Below are positions 38,606-56,741 of a stretch of 56,741 bases of DNA, one piece after another. Source of the stretch: Roseivivax isoporae LMG 25204. Lineage in GTDB: Bacteria; Pseudomonadota; Alphaproteobacteria; Rhodobacterales; Rhodobacteraceae. The notes beneath the pieces were generated by a model, which saw nothing but the letters and a program-made list of their open reading frames with translations, was not told the DNA's origin and made no database searches. The translations under genes were made by a program, and so were the position numbers. The stretch is taken from assembly GCF_000521865.1 (NCBI RefSeq), contig NZ_JAME01000033.1:1-56741 (forward strand). The letters are read 5' to 3'. Each line of letters starts with the position of its first letter. Position 1 is the stretch's first letter.

Positions 38606-39997
38606 TCAGGCGCGGAAGCGCAGGAGGACGGGGCGGCCGCCGCGCTCGACCTCTATGGCGATGCGCGGCAGCGCTGCGGCAAGCGCCGGCGCCACCTGGC
38701 GCGGATGGTCGAGCGCGCGGCCGTTCACGGCCCGGATCACGTCGCCCGCGCGCAGGCCCGCGCGCGCGCCCCAGCGGCCGGGATCGAGCACGACGAGGCC
38801 CTCGGTGCCGAGGGGCAGGTCGCGCTCGGCGATCACGGCGGGGTTCACGCGGGCGACCGTGAGCCCCGGCAGGACCGCGCGCTCGTCGAGGCTGACCGCG
38901 TCGCGCGGCGGGTCCTCGGGCGCGGGCCCGAGCGCCACCTCGAGGGTCAGCGTCTGGCCGCGTCGGCGGATCTCGATCGCGGAGGTGGCGCCGATCCCCC
39001 GCACGGAGAGGCGGTAGATCATCTCGGGCGGGGTGTTCACGGCGCGGCCGTCGACCGCGACGATGACGTCCCCCACCTCGACCCCCGCCGCCGCGAAGGG
39101 CGAGGCGGGGTGCATGTCGGAGATCAGGATGCCTTCGGGCACGGTCTGGCCGAGGCTCTCGGAGAGGTCGGAATCCACGGGCTGTCCGGTGAGGCCCGCC
39201 CACGGCCGCTGGAAGCTCTCTCGCCCGGCCTCGGCCTGCGCCACGAACTGGCGCACCAGGGCCGCGGGGATGGCGAAGCCGATGCCGTTCGAGCCGCCGG
39301 AGCGGGTCAGGATCGAGGTGTTCACCCCGATGAGCCGGCCCGAGACGTCGATCAGCGCGCCGCCGGAATTGCCCGGGTTGATGGGCGCGTCGGTCTGGAT
39401 GAAGTAGCCGCGCGCGTTGCCGGTGGCGGTGCCCGAGCGCGCGAGCCCCGACACGATGCCCGATGACACCGTCTGCCCCACGCCGAACGGGTTGCCGATG
39501 GCGAGGACGAGTTCGCCCACCGCGACGTCGTCGCTGTCGCGCAGCTCGAGATGCGGCAGATCCGGCGCGCCCTCGATCTTGAGGATGGCAAGGTCCGCCT
39601 CCTCGTCCCCGAGAAGCACGCGGGCCGAGTATTCGCGGCGGTCGTTCAGCACCACGCGGATGTCGGTCGCCTGCCCCACCACGTGGAAATTCGACACGAC
39701 GATCCCGTCGGGCGACAGGATCACGCCCGAGCCGAGCGAGTTCTGCACCCGCGGCCGGCCCGGCGCGAAGCTGCGGAAGAAGTCGCGGAAGATCGGATCG
39801 TCCTGGAAGGGGCTGCGCGCCTCGACCACGCGGCTCGCGTAGATGTTGACCACGGCGGGCGCCGCCTCGCGCACGAGGGGGGCGAAGGTCAGGGTGATCT
39901 CGGACGCGTCCTGCGGCACGCGCTCCTGGGCCGGGGCGGCGGCCGGGGCAAGCACGAGCACCAGCGGGATCAGGACGGTGATGAACGGACGCAGCAT
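38606..39997 (-). CDS. Do-family periplasmic serine protease (DegP/DegQ type)
   Basis: A 463-residue protein with an N-terminal signal peptide (LRPFITVLIPLVLVLAPAAAPAQ, cleavage near residue 24). The chymotrypsin-like domain has the triad His in VVSNFHVVG, Asp in EEADLAILKI and Ser in NPGNSGGALID. Two PDZ domains follow (about 265-355 and 375-463). It degrades or refolds damaged proteins in the periplasm. Length and single short Q-linker fit DegQ as well as DegP, so I leave the symbol blank. A promoter lies 30-60 bp upstream, and rarA follows in the same transcript. Confidence 0.93.
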   Translation of the reverse strand: MLRPFITVLIPLVLVLAPAAAPAQERVPQDASEITLTFAPLVREAAPAVVNIYASRVVEARSPFQDDPIFRDFFRSFAPGRPRVQNSLGSGVILSPDGIVVSNFHVVGQATDIRVVLNDRREYSARVLLGDEEADLAILKIEGAPDLPHLELRDSDDVAVGELVLAIGNPFGVGQTVSSGIVSGLARSGTATGNARGYFIQTDAPINPGNSGGALIDVSGRLIGVNTSILTRSGGSNGIGFAIPAALVRQFVAQAEAGRESFQRPWAGLTGQPVDSDLSESLGQTVPEGILISDMHPASPFAAAGVEVGDVIVAVDGRAVNTPPEMIYRLSVRGIGATSAIEIRRRGQTLTLEVALGPAPEDPPRDAVSLDERAVLPGLTVARVNPAVIAERDLPLGTEGLVVLDPGRWGARAGLRAGDVIRAVNGRALDHPRQVAPALAAALPRIAIEVERGGRPVLLRFRA

Positions 39998-47595: not shown

Positions 47596-48129
47596 TTACT
47601 TCTTCTTGCCTTCCTTCTGGAAGATGTACTCATCCTTGTAGCGGATTCCCTTGCCCTTGTAGGGCTCGGGGCGCCGCCAGTCGCGGATGTTCGAAGCCAC
47701 CTGGCCCACCTGCTGAAGGTCGTGACCTTCAACAGAGAGTTCGGTGGGCTTCGCCGCGGTGATGGTAATCCCTTCCGGAATGGCGAATTCGACCTCGTGG
47801 CTGTAGCCCAGGTTCAGCTTCAGGACGTTGCCCTGAACCTGACCCCGGTAACCGACGCCGCGGATTTCGAGGTCCTTCTTGAAGGTCTGCTGCACGCCGT
47901 GGACCATGTTCGCGATCATCGTCCGCGTCATGCCCCATTGCTGGCGCGCGCGCTTGGACTTGCCGCGCGGGTCAACCTTGACCGCGCCCTCGTCGATCGT
48001 GATCGTCACGTCGTCGGTGGCGGTGAAGCTCTGGGTGCCCTTCGGCCCCTTCACCTCGATGGTCTGGCCCGACACGGTGGCGCTGGTCCCCGAGGGGAGC
48101 GCGACCGGCTTCTTACCAATACGAGACAT
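47596..48129 (-). CDS. rplF: 50S ribosomal protein L6
   Basis: A 177-residue protein: [19 protein letters not shown], the [21 protein letters not shown] (in part) block and the C-terminal [26 protein letters not shown] (in part). L6 sits near the sarcin-ricin loop. ATG 48129 follows GAGGGCGAG; 10 bp after rpsH. Confidence 0.99.
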
Positions 48130-48139
48130 CTCGCCCTCC

Positions 48140-48532
48140 TCAGAATACGGTGCAGAGCACTTCGCCGCCCACGTTCTGGGCACGGGCGCTCGCATCCGAC
48201 ATCACGCCACGCGACGTGGAGACGATGGAAACGCCCAGACCCTGGCGGACCTGCGGAATGGACTCGACGCCGAGATAGACGCGGCGGCCGGGCTTCGAGA
48301 CGCGCTTGAGCTCGCGGATCACCGGCTCGCCCTCGTAGTACTTGAGGGAGATCACGAGCGTCGGGTGGCCGCGCTCGTCGGTGCCCTTCTCGTAGCCGCG
48401 GATGTAGCCCTCGTCCGCGAGGACGTCGAGCACCCAGGCGCGCAGCTTGGAGGCCGGCGTCGACACGGTGGACTTGCCACGCATGCCGGCGTTGCGGATG
48501 CGGGTCAGCATATCGCCGATAGGATCGTTCAT
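48140..48532 (-). CDS. rpsH: 30S ribosomal protein S8
   Basis: A 130-residue protein: [61 protein letters not shown] (in parts) are diagnostic. S8 binds the 16S central domain and in E. coli represses the spc operon. It is 13 bp after rpsN. Confidence 0.99.
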
Positions 48533-48545
48533 GTGCCTGCCCTCC

Positions 48546-48851
48546 TTACCAGCTCGACTTGACCATGCCGGGCAGCATGCCCTTCGAGCCGAGCTCGCGG
48601 AGCATGATCCGGCTGATCTTCAGCTTGCGGTAATAGGCGTGCGGACGCCCCGTCAGCTGGCAGCGGTTGTTCAGCCTGGTCGGCGAGGAGTTGCGCGGAA
48701 GCTGCGCGAGCTTCAGGCGTGCCTTGAAGCGCTCCTCCATCGGCTTCGATTCGTCGATTGCGATCTCTTTCAGAGAAGCGCGCTTGGCCGCGTATTTCGC
48801 CACGAGCCGCTCACGCTTTTTCTGACGTTCGACCATGGATTTCTTTGCCAT
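48546..48851 (-). CDS. rpsN: 30S ribosomal protein S14
   Basis: A 101-residue long-form S14 without the zinc-binding CxxC of the short form: [51 protein letters not shown] (in parts). It lies between rplE and rpsH with 13-bp gaps on each side. Confidence 0.99.
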
Positions 48852-48864
48852 GATATCTTTCCCT

Positions 48865-49425
48865 TCAGCCCGTGAACGGCATGTTGAAGTGCTTCAGAAG
48901 CGCCTTCGCCTCGGCATCGCTCGCGGCCGTCGTGGTCACGATGATGTCCATGCCCCAGACCTCGTCGACCTTGTCGAAGTCGATCTCGGGGAAGACGATG
49001 TGCTCCTTGAGGCCCATCGCGAAGTTGCCGCGGCCGTCGAAGCTGGGCTTCACGCCGCGGAAGTCGCGGATGCGCGGCATCGCGATGGTGATGAGCCGGT
49101 CGAGGAAGTCGTACATGCGGTCGCCGCGGAGCGTCACCTTGGCGCCGAGCGGCATTTCCTCACGCACGCGGAAACCCGCGATCGACTTCTTCGCCTTGGT
49201 CACGACCGCTTTCTGGCCGGCGATGCGGGACAGGTCTTCCTGTGCCGACTTGGCCTTCTTGCTGTCGCGGACCGCCTCGGCACCGCAGCCGATGTTCAGC
49301 ACGATCTTGTCGAGCCGGGGGATCTGCATGTCGTTCTTGTAGCCGAACTCTTCCTTCAGCTTGCCGCGGATCTCGTCGCGGAAGAGCTGGCGAAGGCGCG
49401 GGGTGTAGGTCGCGGTATCAAGCAT
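48865..49425 (-). CDS. rplE: 50S ribosomal protein L5
   Basis: A 186-residue protein: [25 protein letters not shown] (in part), [43 protein letters not shown] (in part). L5 binds 5S rRNA and the P-site tRNA. Its ATG lies inside the end of rplX, an 8-bp overlap that couples their translation. Confidence 0.99.
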
Positions 49426-49729
49426 CGATCACGTCCCCCGTGGTCTTGGCGAAACGCACCTTCTTGTCGCCGTCCATGCGGAAGCCGACGCGGGTGGCCT
49501 TGCCGTTCTTGTCGAGCAGAGCGAGGTTCGACAGGTCGATCGGCATCGCCTTCGGCTGGCGGCCGCCCTGGGCGTTCTGGGTCTGGCGCTGGTGACGGAT
49601 CGCCATGTTGATGCCGTCGACGACGGCCTTGCCGTCCTTCGGCATCACCTGCGCGATGGTCCCCTGCTTGCCCTTGTCCTTGCCGGCGAGCACGACGACC
49701 TTGTCACCCTTGCGGAGTTTCGCAGCCAT
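49418..49729 (-). CDS. rplX: 50S ribosomal protein L24
   Basis: A 103-residue protein with the KOW motif [21 protein letters not shown] (in part) and [16 protein letters not shown]24 starts 50S assembly. Its ATG overlaps the rplN stop by one base (TGATG) and its stop overlaps rplE. Confidence 0.99.
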
Positions 49730-50097
49730 CACAGCACCTCCGGAGCGAGCGAGATGATCTTCATGAAGTTCTTCGCGCGCAGCTCGCGCACCACGGGTCC
49801 GAAGATCCGGGTGCCGACGGGCTCGCCCGCGTTGTTGAGGATCACCGCGGCGTTGCGGTCGAAACGGATGGCGGTCCCGTCTTCGCGACGGACCTCCTTG
49901 GCGGTGCGCACGACGACGGCCTTGCGGACGTCGCCCTTCTTCACGCGGCCGCGCGGGATGGCTTCCTTGACCGAGACGACGATGATGTCGCCCACGGACG
50001 CATACTTGCGCTTGGAACCACCCAGAACCTTGATGCACTGAACTCTCCGGGCACCGGAGTTGTCAGCGACATCCAGATTGGTCTGCATCTGGATCAT
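49729..50097 (-). CDS. rplN: 50S ribosomal protein L14
   Basis: A 122-residue protein: [39 protein letters not shown] and the C-terminal [24 protein letters not shown] (in part) are diagnostic. It begins 74 bp after rpsQ and is coupled to rplX. Confidence 0.99.
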
Positions 50098-50171
50098 GTG
50101 GTTTCTCCCGACCTTCCGGGGCTGTTCTGGTTAAGTCCCCGGGGTTTCGATCTAACCGAAAGGTGGCTCGC

Positions 50172-50402
50172 CTACTCGGCGATCACCTCCCAGCGCTTCG
50201 TCTTGGATTTCGGCGCGCATTCGATGATGCGGACGGAATCTCCGACCTTGAAGGTCTCGGCCTCGTCGTGGGCGCGATACTTCTTGGACTTCCGGATCGT
50301 CTTTTGCAGGACCGGATGCTTGAAGCGGCGCTCGACCGAAACGGTGACGGTCTGGGCGTTCGCCGTGGAGGTCACGGTGCCTGAAAGGATACGCTTGGGC
50401 AT
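50172..50402 (-). CDS. rpsQ: 30S ribosomal protein S17
   Basis: A 76-residue protein: [33 protein letters not shown] (in parts) and [20 protein letters not shown]17 helps 16S folding. It is 14 bp after rpmC. Confidence 0.98.
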
Positions 50403-50416
50403 GTGTCCGCTCCCCC

Positions 50417-50623
50417 TTATTCAGCCGAGGCCGCGGCAGCGGCCTTCTGGTTCAGCACGGTCTTCACCCGCGCGATGTCGCGGCGCACGGTCCGCATGCG
50501 CGCGGTGTTCTCGAGCTGGCCGGTGGCCTGCTGGAAGCGCAGGTTGAAGGCCTCTTTCTTGAGCTGGACAAGGCTGTCCCGGAGTTCGTCCGGCGTCTTG
50601 TCACGGAGTTCGCTGGCGTTCAT
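50417..50623 (-). CDS. rpmC: 50S ribosomal protein L29
   Basis: A 68-residue helical protein: [56 protein letters not shown] (in parts). L29 lies at the peptide exit tunnel. In most bacteria it follows L16 directly; here an oxygenase gene, a terminator and a new promoter intervene. It heads the unit rpmC to rpmD, with a leader of about 80 nt. Confidence 0.98.
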
Positions 50624-50712
50624 GTCGCCCCTTTCTCTCAACATCACCGGAGGGCCCCCGCCCGCATGCGCAGGGTCACCCTGATTCCGGTGGAGTCCGT
50701 GGATGAGGCGCC

Positions 50713-50741
50713 CGCATAGACGGGATCCACCCGCATTGCAA
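50713..50741 (-). promoter_or_regulatory. Promoter of the rpmC-rpmD unit
   Basis: Minus strand TTGCAA (50736-50741), 17-bp spacer, TATGCG (50713-50718), identical in both hexamers and spacing to the rpmI promoter. It lies 40-70 bp beyond the stop of the oxygenase gene. Confidence 0.6.
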
Positions 50742-50781
50742 GCGCGAACCTGGGATGGTCGACGGACCGGCGGTCGCGGAC

Positions 50782-51402
50782 CTATTCCCACCTGTAGTTG
50801 AAGCTGACCGAGATGCGTTCGTCCTCGGACATGTTCATGGGGACCTCGTGGCGCAGCCAGCTTTCCCACAGCAGGACCTCGCCGGCCTCGGGGGCGAGGT
50901 ACACGAAGGTCTTGAGCTCTTCCGGGCAGTCCTTGAGGCGCGTCGGTGCGGCCATCATCATCGGCAGGCGCGGGTCCTCGAGGCGCAGCGCCGACGTCCC
51001 CTCGGGCATCTGCACGTAGGTCGTCCCCGAGATCACCGAGTGGGGATGGATGTGGCTGCCATGTGCGCCGCCCTCGGGCAGGATGTTGATCCAGATGTCC
51101 TCGAGCACGAGGCCCTTGTCACCGAGGTCGAAGGCCAGGTCCCGCGCGAAGGACGCGACATGGGCATCCAGCGCCTTGACCACGTCGGCGAAGATCGGGA
51201 AGCGCCAGGGCAGGTCCGTCAGCGAGGCATAGGAGGTGTAGCCCGGGTAGCCTTCGCGCTCGCACCAGTCCTGCCCCGCCTCGTCGTCCTCTGCGATGGA
51301 ATAGCACGATGCGGCCAGCTCGCCGGTGTCCACGGCGGGGCCGTGGTCGGAGAGGCGGGCGCGGTAGAGGCGGGTCGCGAAAAGCGAGGAGATCTTCGGC
51401 AT
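50782..51402 (-). CDS. Putative 2-oxoglutarate/Fe(II) oxygenase (TIGR02466-like) inside the ribosomal cluster
   Basis: A 206-residue protein resembling the TIGR02466 family of putative 2OG-Fe(II) oxygenases. The double-stranded beta-helix metal motif region is [18 protein letters not shown]: His117, His119 and His121 cluster where HxD is usual, so the acidic ligand is replaced or missing. The distal His185 is in [12 protein letters not shown] and Arg196 ([11 protein letters not shown]) is placed to bind 2-oxoglutarate. It lies between rplP (137-bp gap with terminator) and rpmC (158-bp gap with promoter). No Shine-Dalgarno site is visible; a TATGAC lies six bases before the ATG, so a leaderless message is possible. 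Substrate unknown; a ribosomal protein or translation factor is a reasonable guess. Confidence 0.8.
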
Positions 51403-51478
51403 GGCGCCGTCATAGCCGAGGCGCGCGGCTTAGACGAGGGGGTTCGGTGCCCCCTGCCCCGAACATCGGCCGGACGCG

Positions 51479-51510
51479 AAAAGGCCCCCGCCGGGTCGCC
51501 GGCGGGGGCC
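51479..51510 (-). terminator. Rho-independent terminator after rplP
   Basis: A perfect 12-bp stem GGCCCCCGCCGG/CCGGCGGGGGCC (51483-51494 with 51499-51510), 4-nt loop, followed on the minus strand by UUUU (51479-51482). It starts 30 bp after the L16 stop and ends the rplB-rplP part of the S10 cluster before the oxygenase gene. Confidence 0.88.
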
Positions 51511-51539
51511 TCGATGCCTTGCGCGGGGCGCGGACGGAC

Positions 51540-51953
51540 TTACCAGTCCTCGCGTACCACGATGCGGGTCTTGATCGGCAGCTTCATCGAGGCGAGACGC
51601 AGCGCTTCGGTCGCGATCTCCTCGCTGACGCCGTCGATCTCGAACATGACGCGGCCCGGCTTGACCTTGCAGGCCCAGCGGTCGACCGAACCCTTACCTT
51701 TACCCATCCGGACCTCGATCGGCTTTGCCGACACGGGCACATCCGGGAAGATGCGGATCCAGACACGGCCCTGACGCTTCATGTGGCGCGTCATGGCCCG
51801 GCGGGCAGCCTCGATCTGGCGCGCGGTGACGCGCTCGGGCTGGGTCGCCTTCAGTCCGTAGGTACCGAAGTTCAGGTCGGAGCCACCCTTGGCCTCGCCC
51901 TTGATCCGGCCCTTGAACTGCTTGCGGAACTTCGTGCGTTTGGGTTGCAGCAT
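51540..51953 (-). CDS. rplP: 50S ribosomal protein L16
   Basis: A 137-residue protein: [61 protein letters not shown] (in parts), and [24 protein letters not shown] (in part). L16 organises the A-site and peptidyl transferase region. The Arg equivalent to E. coli Arg81, hydroxylated there by YcfD/RoxA, falls in the VRMGKGKGS loop. It is 13 bp after rpsC and is followed by a strong terminator. Confidence 0.99.
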
Positions 51954-51966
51954 GTCTCAGCCCTCC

Positions 51967-52674
51967 TCAGCGACGGCCGCCGGGGCCGCGCGGCGCCGGT
52001 CCGTCCTGCAGTTCCTGCGTGCGGCGGTCGCGTGCCTGGGGATCGTGCTCGAGGATCTCGCCTTTGAAGATCCAGACCTTGATCCCGATGATGCCGTAGG
52101 GCGTGACCGCCTCCACGTTGGCGTGGTCGATGTCCGCGCGCAGCGTGTGCAGCGGAACCCGGCCCTCGCGGTACCATTCGGTCCGCGCGATCTCGGCGCC
52201 GCCGAGACGGCCCGAAACGTTCACCCGGATGCCCTGGGCGCCCATGCGCATCGCGTTCTGCACCGCGCGCTTCATGGCACGGCGGAACGACACCCGGCGC
52301 TCGAGCTGCTGGGCGATCGATTCACCCACCAGACGTGCGTCGAGCTCGGGCTTGCGCACCTCGACGATGTTGAGGTGAAGTTCGGACGCGGTCATGCGGC
52401 CGAGCTTCTTGCGCAGCGCCTCGATGTCGGCGCCCTTCTTGCCGATGATGACACCGGGACGGGCGGCGTGGATCGTCACCCGGCACTTCTTGTGCGGGCG
52501 CTCGATGATCACGCGGGACACGCCCGCCTGCTTGGCTTCCTTGTGGATGAACTCGCGGATCGCGATGTCCTCGAGCAGCAGGTTGCCGTAGTCCTTGGTG
52601 TCGGCGTACCAGCGGCTGTCCCAGGTGCGGTTCACCTGCAGACGCATGCCGATCGGATTGGTCTTGTTGCCCAT
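51967..52674 (-). CDS. rpsC: 30S ribosomal protein S3
   Basis: A 235-residue protein. The KH domain has [31 protein letters not shown] (in parts); the C-terminal part has [21 protein letters not shown] (in part), [19 protein letters not shown] and [15 protein letters not shown]3 is part of the mRNA helicase at the entry tunnel. Its ATG overlaps the rplV stop by one base. Confidence 0.99.
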
Positions 52675-53054
52675 CAGGCTTGCTCCTCGATCTGACGCAC
52701 CTTGATGGTGATTTCCGAGAACGGCTTCATGATGCGGCCGAACCGGCCACGCGCCCGCGGACGGCCGCGCTTCATCACGAGGTTCTTGCCGACCCAGGCC
52801 TCGGCCACGACCAGTTCGTCGACGTCGAGACCATGGTTGTTCTCGGCGTTGGCGATGGCGGACTGAAGGCACTTCTTCACGTCGATCGCGATGCGCTTCT
52901 TCGAGAAGGTCAGGTCGGTCAGCGCCCGGTCCACCTTCTTGCCGCGGATCATGGCAGCGACGAGGTTCAGCTTCTGCGGGCTCGTGCGCAGCATGCGCAG
53001 CTTGGCCATCGCCTCGTTGTCCGCCACGCGGCGGGGATTCTTATCCTTGCCCAT
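52674..53054 (-). CDS. rplV: 50S ribosomal protein L22
   Basis: A 126-residue protein: [25 protein letters not shown] (in part), [21 protein letters not shown] (in part) and [23 protein letters not shown] (in part) with the long hairpin loop that lines the exit tunnel. It is 3 bp after rpsS. Confidence 0.99.
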
Positions 53055-53057
53055 GGC

Positions 53058-53336
53058 TTACTTCCTCTTCGCTTTCTTGTCGGCCGCGTGACCGTAATAG
53101 GTGCGGGTCGGCGAGTATTCACCGAACTTCTGCCCGATCATGTCCTCGGAGACGTTCACCGGCACGTGCTTGTGGCCGTTGTAGACGCCGAAGGTGAGAC
53201 CCACGAACTGCGGCAGGATGGTCGAACGGCGCGACCAGATCTTGATGACTTCGTTGCGGCCCGATTCGCGCGCGGCCTCGGCCTTCTTCAGGACGTAGGC
53301 GTCGACGAAGGGGCCCTTCCAGACGGAGCGTGTCAT
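53058..53336 (-). CDS. rpsS: 30S ribosomal protein S19
   Basis: A 92-residue protein: [44 protein letters not shown] (in part), [29 protein letters not shown] (in parts). It is 3 bp after rplB and 3 bp before rplV. Confidence 0.99.
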
Positions 53337-53339
53337 GTA

Positions 53340-54182
53340 TTAGCGCCCTTTCTTACGTGCGTGACGCGAGCGGATGATGAGCTTGGACGACGCCTTGTTC
53401 GGGTCGCGCGTCTTTGCCCCCTTGGTGGGCTTGCCCCAGGGCGTGACCGGGTGACGGCCGCCCGAGGTGCGGCCCTCGCCGCCGCCATGCGGGTGATCGA
53501 TCGGGTTCATGACGACGCCGCGGACGCTCGGGCGCTTGCCCATGTGCCGCGTGCGGCCGGCCTTGCCGATGTTCTGGTTCGAGTTGTCGGGGTTCGACAC
53601 CGCGCCCACGGTGGCCATGCATTCCTGGCGCACCATGCGCAGTTCGCCCGACGACAGCCGGATCTGCGCGTAGCCACCGTCACGGCCGACGAACTGGGCG
53701 TAGGTGCCCGCCGCACGGGCGATCTGGCCGCCCTTGCCCGGCTTCAGCTCGATGTTGTGGACGATCGTGCCGATCGGCATGCCCGAGAACGGCATCGCGT
53801 TGCCCGGCTTGATGTCCGCCCGCGCGCTCGAGATCACGCGGTCGCCGATGGCGAGGCGCTGGGGCGCGAGGATGTAGGCCTGCTCGCCGTCGTCGTACTG
53901 GATCAGCGCGATGAAGGCGGTGCGGTTCGGGTCGTATTCGATCCGGGCGACGATGCCCTGGATGTCGAATTTCGTCCGCTTGAAGTCGACGATGCGGTAG
54001 AGGCGCTTCGCCCCGCCGCCGCGCCGCCGCGCGGTGATCCGTCCGGTGTTGTTGCGGCCGCCCTTCTTCGTCAGACCCTCGGTGAGTGCCTTGACGGGAC
54101 GTCCCTTCCACAGCTCCGAACGGTCGATCAGCACCAGCCCGCGCTGGCCCGGCGTCGTCGGCTTGTACGACTTGAGTGCCAT
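53340..54182 (-). CDS. rplB: 50S ribosomal protein L2
   Basis: A 280-residue protein: [45 protein letters not shown] (in part), [37 protein letters not shown] (in parts) with the conserved His near the peptidyl transferase centre. It starts 257 bp after rplW; the gap holds a terminator and a weak promoter-like site, so it may head a separate unit. Confidence 0.99.
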
Positions 54183-54356
54183 GCTTCCTGTCTTCCGTTT
54201 TCAGATGGCGGCCTGCGTGCCCTCGGGCCCGCCTGTCCGCCTGGTGTCGGCCGGAGCGATCCGGCCATCGGATGTAGGGCCCCGAAGGTCCCCGGTGGTG
54301 GGGTGCGGACCCGCGCCGAGCGCGCGTTCCGCGTCATCGCCGGGCCCCCACTCCGC

Positions 54357-54385
54357 CGGATAGCGGCAGGCAGACCCCCGATGAA
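54357..54385 (-). promoter_or_regulatory. Possible rplB promoter
   Basis: Minus strand TTCATC (54380-54385), 17-bp spacer, TATCCG (54357-54362), directly after the rplW terminator. The -10 equals that of the CDF gene, but the -35 is poor. Confidence 0.3.
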
Positions 54386-54386
54386 A

Positions 54387-54417
54387 AGACGTGGCCCCGG
54401 ATCAGCCCCGGGGCCAC
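54387..54417 (-). terminator. Terminator-like hairpin after rplW
   Basis: A perfect 10-bp stem GTGGCCCCGG/CCGGGGCCAC (54391-54400 with 54408-54417), 7-nt loop, followed on the minus strand by GUCUUUUC. It lies 22 bp after the L23 stop and splits the S10 cluster before rplB. Confidence 0.7.
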
Positions 54418-54439
54418 GCCAGTGAGTCGCGGCTCTCTA

Positions 54440-54736
54440 TCAGAGGCCGGTGGTCACGTCGATGGTGTTTCCCTCGACCAGGGTGACGTAGGCCTTCTTC
54501 GTGTCCTTGCGCCGGCCCTTGAGCCCGCGGAACCGCTTGACCTTGCCCTTGGTGATCGAGGTGTTCACCGCCTTGACCTTGACGCCGAACAGCGCCTCGA
54601 CCGCGTCGCGGATCTGCGGCTTGGTCGAGTCCATCGCCACCTCGAACACGACGGCGTTGTTCTCGGACGCCATGGTGCTCTTCTCGGTGATGATCGGCTT
54701 GCGGATCACGTCGTAATGTTCAGCCTTCGCGCTCAT
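54440..54736 (-). CDS. rplW: 50S ribosomal protein L23
   Basis: A 98-residue protein: [53 protein letters not shown] (in parts) and the C-terminal [18 protein letters not shown]23 docks trigger factor and SRP at the exit tunnel. The start overlaps rplD (ATGA). It is the last gene before a terminator and a 257-bp gap. Confidence 0.99.
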
Positions 54737-55350
54737 TTCAGCCGTGCCTCCAGAGCTTCGATCCCCGCCTTCGTGATCACCAGGGTGTCACGCTTGAGGA
54801 TGTCGTAGACGTTCGCGCCCATCGAGGGCAGGATGTCCAGGCCCTCGATGTTGGCAGCGGCGCGGAGGAAGTCCTCGTTGACGCTGGCGCCGTCGATGAT
54901 GAGCGCGCGCTTCCAGCCGAGGTTCTTCACGGCCGCCGCGAGCGACTTGGTCTTGCCGTCCGATTCCGCGGCGTCGAGGATCACGAGGTTGCCCTCGCGC
55001 GCCTTGGCGCTCAGCGCGTGCTTGAGGCCCAGCTGGCGCACCTTCTTGGGCAGTTCGTGCGCGTGGCTGCGCGGAACCGGGCCCTTGTAGATGCCGCCCT
55101 TGCGGAAGATCGGAGCCTTGCGCGAGCCGTGGCGTGCGCCGCCCGTGCCCTTCTGGCGGTAGATCTTCTTGGTCGAGTAGCTGACCTCGGACCGGCCGAG
55201 CGTCGAGTGCGTGCCGGCCATCGCCTTGTTGCGCTGCCAGCGGACGACGCGGTGCAGGATGTCGGCGCGCGGCTCGAGACCGAAGATCTCGTCGCCCAGG
55301 TCGACCGAACCCGCGGTCTCGCCGTCGAGCTTGATCACGTCGAGTTTCAT
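54733..55350 (-). CDS. rplD: 50S ribosomal protein L4
   Basis: A 205-residue protein: [41 protein letters not shown] (in parts) is the extended loop lining the exit tunnel; [16 protein letters not shown] follows. In E. coli L4 represses the S10 operon; whether that holds here cannot be seen. ATGA overlaps join it to rplC and rplW. Confidence 0.99.
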
Positions 55351-56213
55351 TCCTCACCGTCCTTCTTCTGGGCGTCGCCGCCATCCTCGGACTGGTCCGA
55401 CTTGATGTCGGCCTCGGCTTCCTTCAGCGCCTCTTCCTGCGCCGCGGCTTCCTCGGCCAGACGTGCCTCCTCGGCAGCGCGGGCCTCTTCCTCGGCAGCC
55501 TTCGCGGCTTCCTCGGCAAGACGCTTCGCCTCGTCGGCGGCGGACTTCAGCGCGGCGGGCAGGATGATGCCCTCGGGCGTCGGCTTCTTGACCGCGTCCT
55601 TCACGGTGACCCAGCCGCCCTTGGCGCCGGGAACCGCACCCTTGATCATGATCAGGCCGCGCTCGGCATCCGTGCGCACCACCTGCAGGTTCTGCGTGGT
55701 GACGCGGACGGCGCCCATGTGACCCGCCATCTTCTTGCCCTTGAACACCTTGCCGGGGTCCTGGCACTGGCCGGTCGAACCGTGCGAGCGGTGGCTGATC
55801 GACACGCCGTGCGAGGCGCGCAGGCCGCCGAAATTGTGCCGCTTCATGGCACCGGCGAAGCCCTTACCGATCGAGGTGCCCGAGACGTCGACGAACTGGC
55901 CCGCGAAGTAGTGGTCCGCGGTGATCTCCTCGCCCACGCCGATCAGGTTCTCCGGCGCGACGCGGAATTCCGCGACCTTGCGCTTCGGTTCGACCTTGGC
56001 CACGGCGAAATGGCCGCGCATCGGTTTCGAGACGTTCTTCGCCTTGATCGTGCCGGTGCCGAGCTGGACGGCCGAATAGCCGTGGCTGTCGACGGTCCGC
56101 TGGGCGACGACCTGCAGCTTGTCGAGCTGGAGGACGGTCACGGGAACCTGCTTCCCGTCCTCCATGAAGAGCCGGGTCATGCCGACCTTCTTCGCGATGA
56201 TTCCAGAGCGCAT
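55347..56213 (-). CDS. rplC: 50S ribosomal protein L3 with long acidic C-terminal tail
   Basis: A 288-residue protein. Residues 1-218 are L3: [49 protein letters not shown] (in parts), [23 protein letters not shown] (in part). Residues 219-288 are an Ala/Glu/Lys-rich tail ([20 protein letters not shown] and similar) that should form a long charged helix, ending in a polar Asp/Ser/Gly stretch. E. coli L3 has about 209 residues. The tail is presumably surface exposed; its role is unknown. It is 13 bp after rpsJ and overlaps rplD by ATGA. Confidence 0.98.
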
Positions 56214-56226
56214 GCGCTTGCCCTCC

Positions 56227-56535
56227 TTACACCTTGATCTCGACGTCGACGCCGGCAGCGAGGTCGAGCTTCATGAGCGCGTCCACGGTCTGCGGCGTCG
56301 GGTCGACGATGTCGAGCAGACGCTTGTGGGTCCGGATCTCCCACTGGTCGCGCGACTTCTTGTTCACGTGCGGGCCGCGCAGGACGGTGAACCGCTCGAT
56401 CTTGTTCGGCAGCGGGATCGGTCCGCGCACGTCGGCACCGGTCCGCTTGGCGGTGTTCACGATCTCCTGCGTGCTGGCGTCCAGCACGCGGTAGTCGAAC
56501 GCCTTGAGCCGGATGCGAATGTTCTGGCTTTGCAT
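56227..56535 (-). CDS. rpsJ: 30S ribosomal protein S10
   Basis: A 102-residue protein: [40 protein letters not shown] (in parts) and [21 protein letters not shown] (in part). S10 also acts in antitermination as NusE. Start ATG 56535. It follows tuf by 187 bp, with no promoter that I can support, and starts the S10 cluster. Confidence 0.99.
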
Positions 56536-56722
56536 GTATCTGGCCTTCAATCGGTCAGGTGAGAGTTGAGAGGAGGAAGCAGGACCACCCCGCCCCCTCG
56601 TCGAACCCGCGTCGGGCCGGCCGGACCGACGCGGCCCCGGAAACGATCCGGGGCCCGCCGGGCCATGGGCCCTCGTGTCTCGTGGTCCCGGCGGCCAGGC
56701 CGCCGGGTTCGCCCTGTGGGGC
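56536..56722 (-). other. Intergenic region between tuf and rpsJ
   Basis: It holds two GC hairpins: 56633-56655 (GGCCCCGG/CCGGGGCC) and 56687-56707 (CCCGGCGG/CCGCCGGG). Neither has a U-tract. They may partly uncouple tuf from the S10 cluster. No TTGnnn-N17-TAnnnn promoter is evident. Confidence 0.45.
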
Positions 56723-56741
56723 TTACTCGATGATCTTCGAG
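56723..56741 (-). CDS. tuf: Elongation factor Tu, last five residues
   Basis: The minus strand enters as SKIIE followed by TAA at 56723-56725. SKIIE is the C terminus of alphaproteobacterial EF-Tu, and tuf directly upstream of rpsJ is the conserved order. Only the 3' end is inside the window, so the call rests on five residues and context. Confidence 0.7.

Follow-up and report, generated by a model that had tools for sequence, protein, structure and literature searches.

Why does a gene for a putative 2-oxoglutarate (2OG)/Fe(II) oxygenase stand between rplP and rpmC, the genes for ribosomal proteins L16 and L29, in Roseivivax isoporae, and what does this address say about the enzyme? We analysed a stretch of 56,741 nucleotides (the window), in which the open reading frame fills exactly the interval given in Table 1 and is flanked, on the same strand, by rplP across a gap of 137 nt and by rpmC across a gap of 158 nt. 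An earlier note had described the gene as embedded in the ribosomal cluster and had raised a ribosome-modifying role as a possibility.

Table 1. Coordinates of the oxygenase gene and of the elements around it in the window.
Feature	Position	Strand	Details
Oxygenase gene, TIGR02466/PF13759 2OG-Fe(II) oxygenase-like	50782..51402	(-)	206 aa; H117-x-H119, H185, R196
rplP (L16), final gene of the upstream S10-type unit	51540..51953	(-)	
rpmC (L29), opening gene of the downstream unit	50417..50623	(-)	
Terminator-like hairpin after rplP	51479..51510	(-)	12-bp G+C stem (51483-51510), then TTTT
Promoter-like site upstream of rpmC	50713..50741	(-)	TTGCAA-N17-TATGCG
Conserved structured RNA leader of rpmC	50624..50712	(-)	directly before rpmC, after the promoter-like site

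The protein scores 279.1 bits against TIGR02466 (cut-off 62.5) and 119.5 bits against PF13759, 2OG-FeII_Oxy_5 (cut-off 27), and the Pfam scan returned nothing else apart from a PF13640 match under its cut-off. A profile search of the R. isoporae assembly found it to be the sole TIGR02466 match. Two PDB chains, 2rg4 (residues 3-205, E 2.6e-113) and 3bvc (residues 6-205, E 5.4e-108), are nearly full-length homologues with about 76-77% identity, including a 15-residue stretch identical in the printed alignment; their source organisms, Oceanicola granulosus and Roseovarius nubinhibens, are named in a passage of PMC3532365. Both structures were solved but deposited as uncharacterised, so that they name no function, and a literature search found no known substrate for the TIGR02466/PF13759 family. 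The nearest named relative among the best 80 of 445 is a Roseivivax protein with 85% identity. More distantly, cyanophage 2OG-Fe(II) oxygenases (phrog_81) belong to the same broad family and carry HxH...H...R in the three sequences read, at about 28-32% identity in the rows listed. These matches bear out the identification of an oxygenase-like gene between rplP and rpmC.

We surveyed 198 Rhodobacteraceae genomes, one per genus, and obtained 121 TIGR02466 rows of at least 199 bits. Three of these (G025-C19, G038-C3 and G102) share only 26-29% identity with the window protein and were excluded, leaving 118 orthologue rows; two of the three score about 255 bits, so score alone is no proof of orthology, and the orthologue status of G056, G108, G132 and the other rows that were not fetched is by score alone. 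The two high-scoring copies, which are second TIGR02466 genes in G025 and G038 (loci L179 and L180), appear by their low identity to be a separate subfamily. Among the matches listed, 107 of the 118 rows lie at most 25 kb from rplP or rpmC, and the fetched loci (115 of 150 listed regions, plus 5 others) add G034, G080, G121, G155 and G178, so that 112 of 118 adjoin one of the two genes. As for the rest, G089 and G177 carry an unlinked oxygenase with rplP and rpmC together elsewhere, and among the matches listed G056, G132 and G185 have the oxygenase on contigs other than those of the anchors and G108 has no rplP or rpmC anchor. When the three genes are found on one contig, again among the matches listed, the oxygenase lies between rplP and rpmC in 74 of 75 cases; one of the 74 is G045, with rplP about 205 kb from the oxygenase, and the exception is G128, where it is beside rplP with rpmC about 250 kb off. 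A set of named relatives (the best 80 of 445, hence close ones) places it between the two genes in 67 of 80 loci and beside one of them in 13. The earlier note had suggested surveying whether the gene is fixed here in Rhodobacteraceae, and the outcome is positive: the address is nearly fixed. Rearrangements have also broken the rplP-rpmC gap: the two genes stand about 206 kb apart in G045 and about 249 kb apart in G128, and on opposite strands in G009 (loci L139, L141 and L066, respectively).

For comparison we took a control gene that adjoins rplQ at the cluster's other end (window 38606-39997), putatively a protease. This gave 100 rows of at least 368 bits, 92 of them with an anchor among the matches listed: 60 at most 25 kb away, 4 far off on the same contig and 28 on another contig. 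Counting the same-contig cases alone, linkage of the control holds for 60 of 64. Lying about 10 kb from rpmC, the control is more exposed to contig breaks than the oxygenase. The comparison demonstrates that a non-ribosomal gene is commonly linked at this cluster, not that both rates are equal. In orientation the control is much more constant than the oxygenase, with 58 cases on the same strand and 2 on the opposite one. The oxygenase and its nearest ribosomal gene share a strand in 61 of the 107 linked rows and oppose each other in 46, among the matches listed (63 and 44 by an alternative anchor rule), and the named set, the best 80 of 445 relatives, gives 55 and 25. By the conserved-strand test for membership of the S10 operon, the oxygenase does not behave as a member. 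A tree of eight joined ribosomal proteins from 103 loci implies at least 20 strand changes, a rough number given the weak support of the tree (32 of 100 inner branches starred). Named genera that contribute several loci do not vary in strand: for example, it is that of the ribosomal genes in 7/7 Roseivivax and 6/6 Pseudooceanicola loci. Paired terminators were considered as the cause of the flips and rejected, as a terminator follows the oxygenase in 8 of 85 loci.

The contents of the gap tell of turnover around one persistent gene. Among the ten largest clusters of gap genes, the oxygenase, with 87 loci, is the only conserved one. Four further large clusters (76, 54, 39 and 23 loci) overlap the oxygenase, although the first has members that do not overlap it in 10 loci and the third in 1; the remaining clusters hold at most 7 loci each, and no gene clear of the oxygenase is seen in more than 10 loci.

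The description of the gene as embedded in the ribosomal cluster holds by position, but the junction itself looks like a boundary between transcription units. Of 76 loci that carry the oxygenase, 62 have a terminator-like hairpin behind rplP, against about 1% in base shuffles. The 28 loci from genomes scored as without the oxygenase divide by gap length: the hairpin is there in 12 of the 14 whose gap is at least 150 nt and in 1 of the 14 whose gap is shorter. The promoter-like pattern before rpmC, whose common form in relatives is TTGCCA-N17-TATACG and which lies about 105-150 nt ahead of the start codon in most loci having one, is present in 43 of 81 loci with the oxygenase. Among other loci, which take in G089 and G177 with their oxygenase elsewhere, it is found in 12 of 15 whose gap is at least 150 nt and in 0 of 15 whose gap is shorter; base shuffles give it in 56 of 2220. 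A stricter form gives 28/81, 5/15 and 0/15, respectively. Since both signals occur in long-gap loci without the oxygenase, the split between units can exist without it. Our terminator and promoter scans were set against plain base shuffles rather than dinucleotide ones, and the case rests on recurrence across loci. In the window's promoter scan the rpmC site is not the top scorer, and a stricter consensus scan of 48000-56741, with terminators defined by at least five T, found 0 promoter-like sites (0.8 expected) and 6 terminator-like ones (6.6 expected), listing neither the rplP hairpin nor the rpmC promoter-like site. Between the oxygenase and rpmC the window contains no terminator, so co-transcription with rpmC is possible, and the region upstream of the oxygenase shows no promoter enrichment (mean 11.99, against 11.76 in shuffles).

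The downstream unit also seems to open with an RNA element of its own. In an alignment of the rpmC leader from 55 loci, 97.5% of cells pair, compensatory changes occur at 7 of 11 pairs, and covariation reaches 0.279 against 0.145 in shuffles, with 0 of 500 shuffles as high. This alignment holds 55 of the 82 rows, out of 111, that pass a sequence pattern. The pattern biases the choice towards the outer helix but does not include helices 2 and 3, and the structure prediction used this very alignment. What precedes this ribosomal-protein gene is accordingly a conserved, covarying structure. The resulting model matches 99 of 112 loci, of which 55 had built it, and 44 of 57 once those are set aside. 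By set, it is found in 79 of 80 loci of one, the miss being L141, where rpmC itself was not found, and in 20 of 32 of the second, all 12 misses having an rplP-rpmC gap below 150 nt. Among 190 genomes of the class it matches 3, all of them Rhodobacteraceae, and the 167 unlisted genomes may hold more of the family. No Rfam 15 family matches the leader, and a term search of the main text of a leader survey (PMC7247131) does not bring up L29. The rpmC leader is a candidate regulator of the ribosomal operon without an Rfam 15 match. The window carries a further leader at 54185-54293 (-), the L2-Alphaproteobacteria ribosomal protein leader RF03142 (44.5 bits), which likewise precedes a ribosomal gene of this cluster but is a different RNA before a different gene.

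Outside Rhodobacteraceae the address changes. A survey of 289 genomes of the class revealed 20 outside the family with a TIGR02466 row of at least 199 bits. Around these 20 loci, in flanks of about 4 to 8 kb either side, a search for nine of the cluster's ribosomal proteins gave no match, and no neighbour is shared among the loci. In Pfam scans of 38 of 40 chosen neighbouring ORFs, one locus showed pth together with a YchF-type GTPase; apart from small methyltransferases whose target is uncertain, no other translation gene was evident. The neighbours are metabolic and varied, including a BCCT transporter, a urease accessory protein and a hydroxyacylglutathione hydrolase. The family of genome G326 appears to be Sphingomonadaceae, since the pth and ychF of G326 share 76% and 86% identity with the Sphingomonas parapaucimobilis genes. 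In that family pth adjoins the oxygenase in 3 of 17 orthologue-like loci, and does so in one Sphingomonas record; ychF also stands on the far side in 3 of these 4 pth loci, the Sphingomonas record included (L343, L223, L356 and L358 are the four). With 3 of 17 loci, over stretches of about 1.5 kb on each side, pth/ychF was rejected as a general context of the oxygenase.

Taken with these comparisons, the explanation that we find on balance probable is an autonomous gene of the non-haem iron oxygenase fold, lying in the gap between the S10-type and the rpmC-led units and mostly inherited there within Rhodobacteraceae. The comparative sequence basis is the rplP hairpin in most loci, the rpmC promoter-like site and leader, which are seen in most longer-gap loci lacking the gene as well, the free strand of the oxygenase and the turnover of the other gap genes. 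The gap would then be a transcription boundary, the oxygenase would have its own promoter, and its place would be carried along by a stable ribosomal region rather than kept for co-expression. The enzyme would bind iron with HxH...H, use 2OG held by R196 and oxidise a soluble substrate, probably not an adjacent ribosomal protein. Several observations count against this explanation. The oxygenase alone persists among gap genes, so its place could matter; the pth and ychF neighbours in G326's family are translation genes; the window has no terminator before rpmC and no promoter enrichment upstream of the oxygenase; and the stricter consensus scan passes over both named junction elements.

The predicted fold bears on the substrate. 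The best AlphaFold2 model of the oxygenase has a pLDDT of 81.8 and a pTM of 0.81 (the other four models have pLDDT 66-70), and 2rg4 and 3bvc may have been in the training data. It is predicted to be a double-stranded beta-helix, as it matches 3bvc, 2rg4, prolyl 4-hydroxylase (P4H) and PHD2: a fold search returned 3bvc (TMq 0.91) and 2rg4 (0.90), then PolD, Pseudomonas putida P4H and PHD2, with HygX, WelO5 and HalD also among the matches. P. putida P4H (4J25; 4IW3 is its complex with EF-Tu) and PHD2 have a similar fold at a TMq of about 0.5-0.6 but only 10-19% identity in the rows listed. The fold matches do not reveal whether the substrate is a protein or a small molecule. PolD, HygX, WelO5 and HalD, together with the varied metabolic neighbours outside Rhodobacteraceae, would suit a small-molecule 2OG oxygenase acting on an amino acid, osmolyte or other metabolite, with no tie to translation. 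We rate this as rather unlikely, given that the neighbours are not shared and so name no pathway, and that the fold matches do not split the two kinds of substrate. It is compatible with the preferred explanation, a gene inherited at a transcription boundary, which sets no particular substrate.

A hydroxylase of the ribosome or of a translation factor, convergent with YcfD and placed by rplP because of its substrate (L16, L29 or another translation protein), would explain the near-fixed linkage in Rhodobacteraceae; the protein hydroxylases among the nearest folds, including the P4H solved with EF-Tu, the copies that adjoin pth/ychF in another family and the absence of JmjC_2 from the R. isoporae genome fit it too. 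YcfD/RoxA (JmjC_2, PF08007) is the L16 hydroxylase and shares the 2OG oxygenase class with the window protein's family, but it carries HxD where the window oxygenase has HxH, and the window protein has no PF08007 match. Across the 198 genera JmjC_2 is above cut-off in 7, of which 6 (G011, G126, G144, G171, G186 and G190) also hold the oxygenase and G084 does not; the oxygenase as a replacement for YcfD was rejected on this lack of anti-correlation. Comparison of eight ribosomal proteins between 75 holders and 28 other loci gave a largest column difference of 0.44 in frequency, in S3, and that residue is kept in 11 of 11 nested absences, a set chosen manually on the tree; retention is lower for some of the smaller differences, down to 0.64. 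No column of the eight proteins cleanly tracks the presence of the oxygenase, and a residue doing so was dropped as a candidate. The L16 stretch RMGKGKG, which we take to be that with the Arg named for E. coli L16, is present in 105 of 106 loci when those with and without the oxygenase are pooled. With the hairpin after rplP and the free strand, the address alone does not show that the oxygenase acts on ribosomes. These two features, the 20 of 20 outside loci lacking the nine ribosomal proteins, a linked and strand-steady protease control, the absence of a presence-tracking column and the lack of any sign of YcfD replacement all weigh against such a hydroxylase, which we hold to be unlikely, and the ribosome-modifying role proposed in the earlier note gains little. 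Its most specific form seems quite doubtful: a natural three-His HxH oxygenase that would hydroxylate a protein of the ribosome or of translation in Rhodobacteraceae, which mostly lack YcfD, and whose place by rplP, or by pth and ychF in part of a second family, would be kept because of that substrate.

The metal motif noted earlier, the His-rich SHIHPH with HxH instead of HxD, proved to be a constant of the family. In an alignment of 214 of 281 protein rows, those without inner stops and mostly close orthologues, H117 and H119 are present in 214/214, H185 and R196 in 213/214 with one gap each, and the third His of SHIHPH (H121) in 194; position 143 is Asp in 212 rows and Glu in 2. All four residues of HxH...H...R are also kept in 20 of 20 more varied TIGR02466/PF13759 rows, the window protein included, and a search of these rows for HxD/E found none. 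The window protein thus appears to depart from the HxD/E...H facial triad of the 2OG/Fe(II) superfamily, with H119 presumably at the place of the carboxylate of HxD and R196 at what we take to be the place of the 2OG-binding Arg. P. putida P4H and PHD2 carry HxD. The structure prediction that had been suggested for locating the Fe ligands provides the oxygenase fold, and the AlphaFold2 model yields no ligand geometry. An engineered three-His prolyl 4-hydroxylase (D414H, His for Asp) is reported to be inactive (PMC2767507), which counts against the preferred explanation; it would instead agree, as would the invariant histidines, with a three-His centre of other chemistry or a metal-binding sensor without turnover, a reading that we judge very improbable given the equally kept R196 and an acidic residue at 143 that could be a ligand.

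The invariant HxH makes the chemistry of this oxygenase a testable question. The case shows how far a gene's address can mislead, when a near-fixed ribosomal neighbour is free in its orientation and lies behind a terminator-like hairpin.
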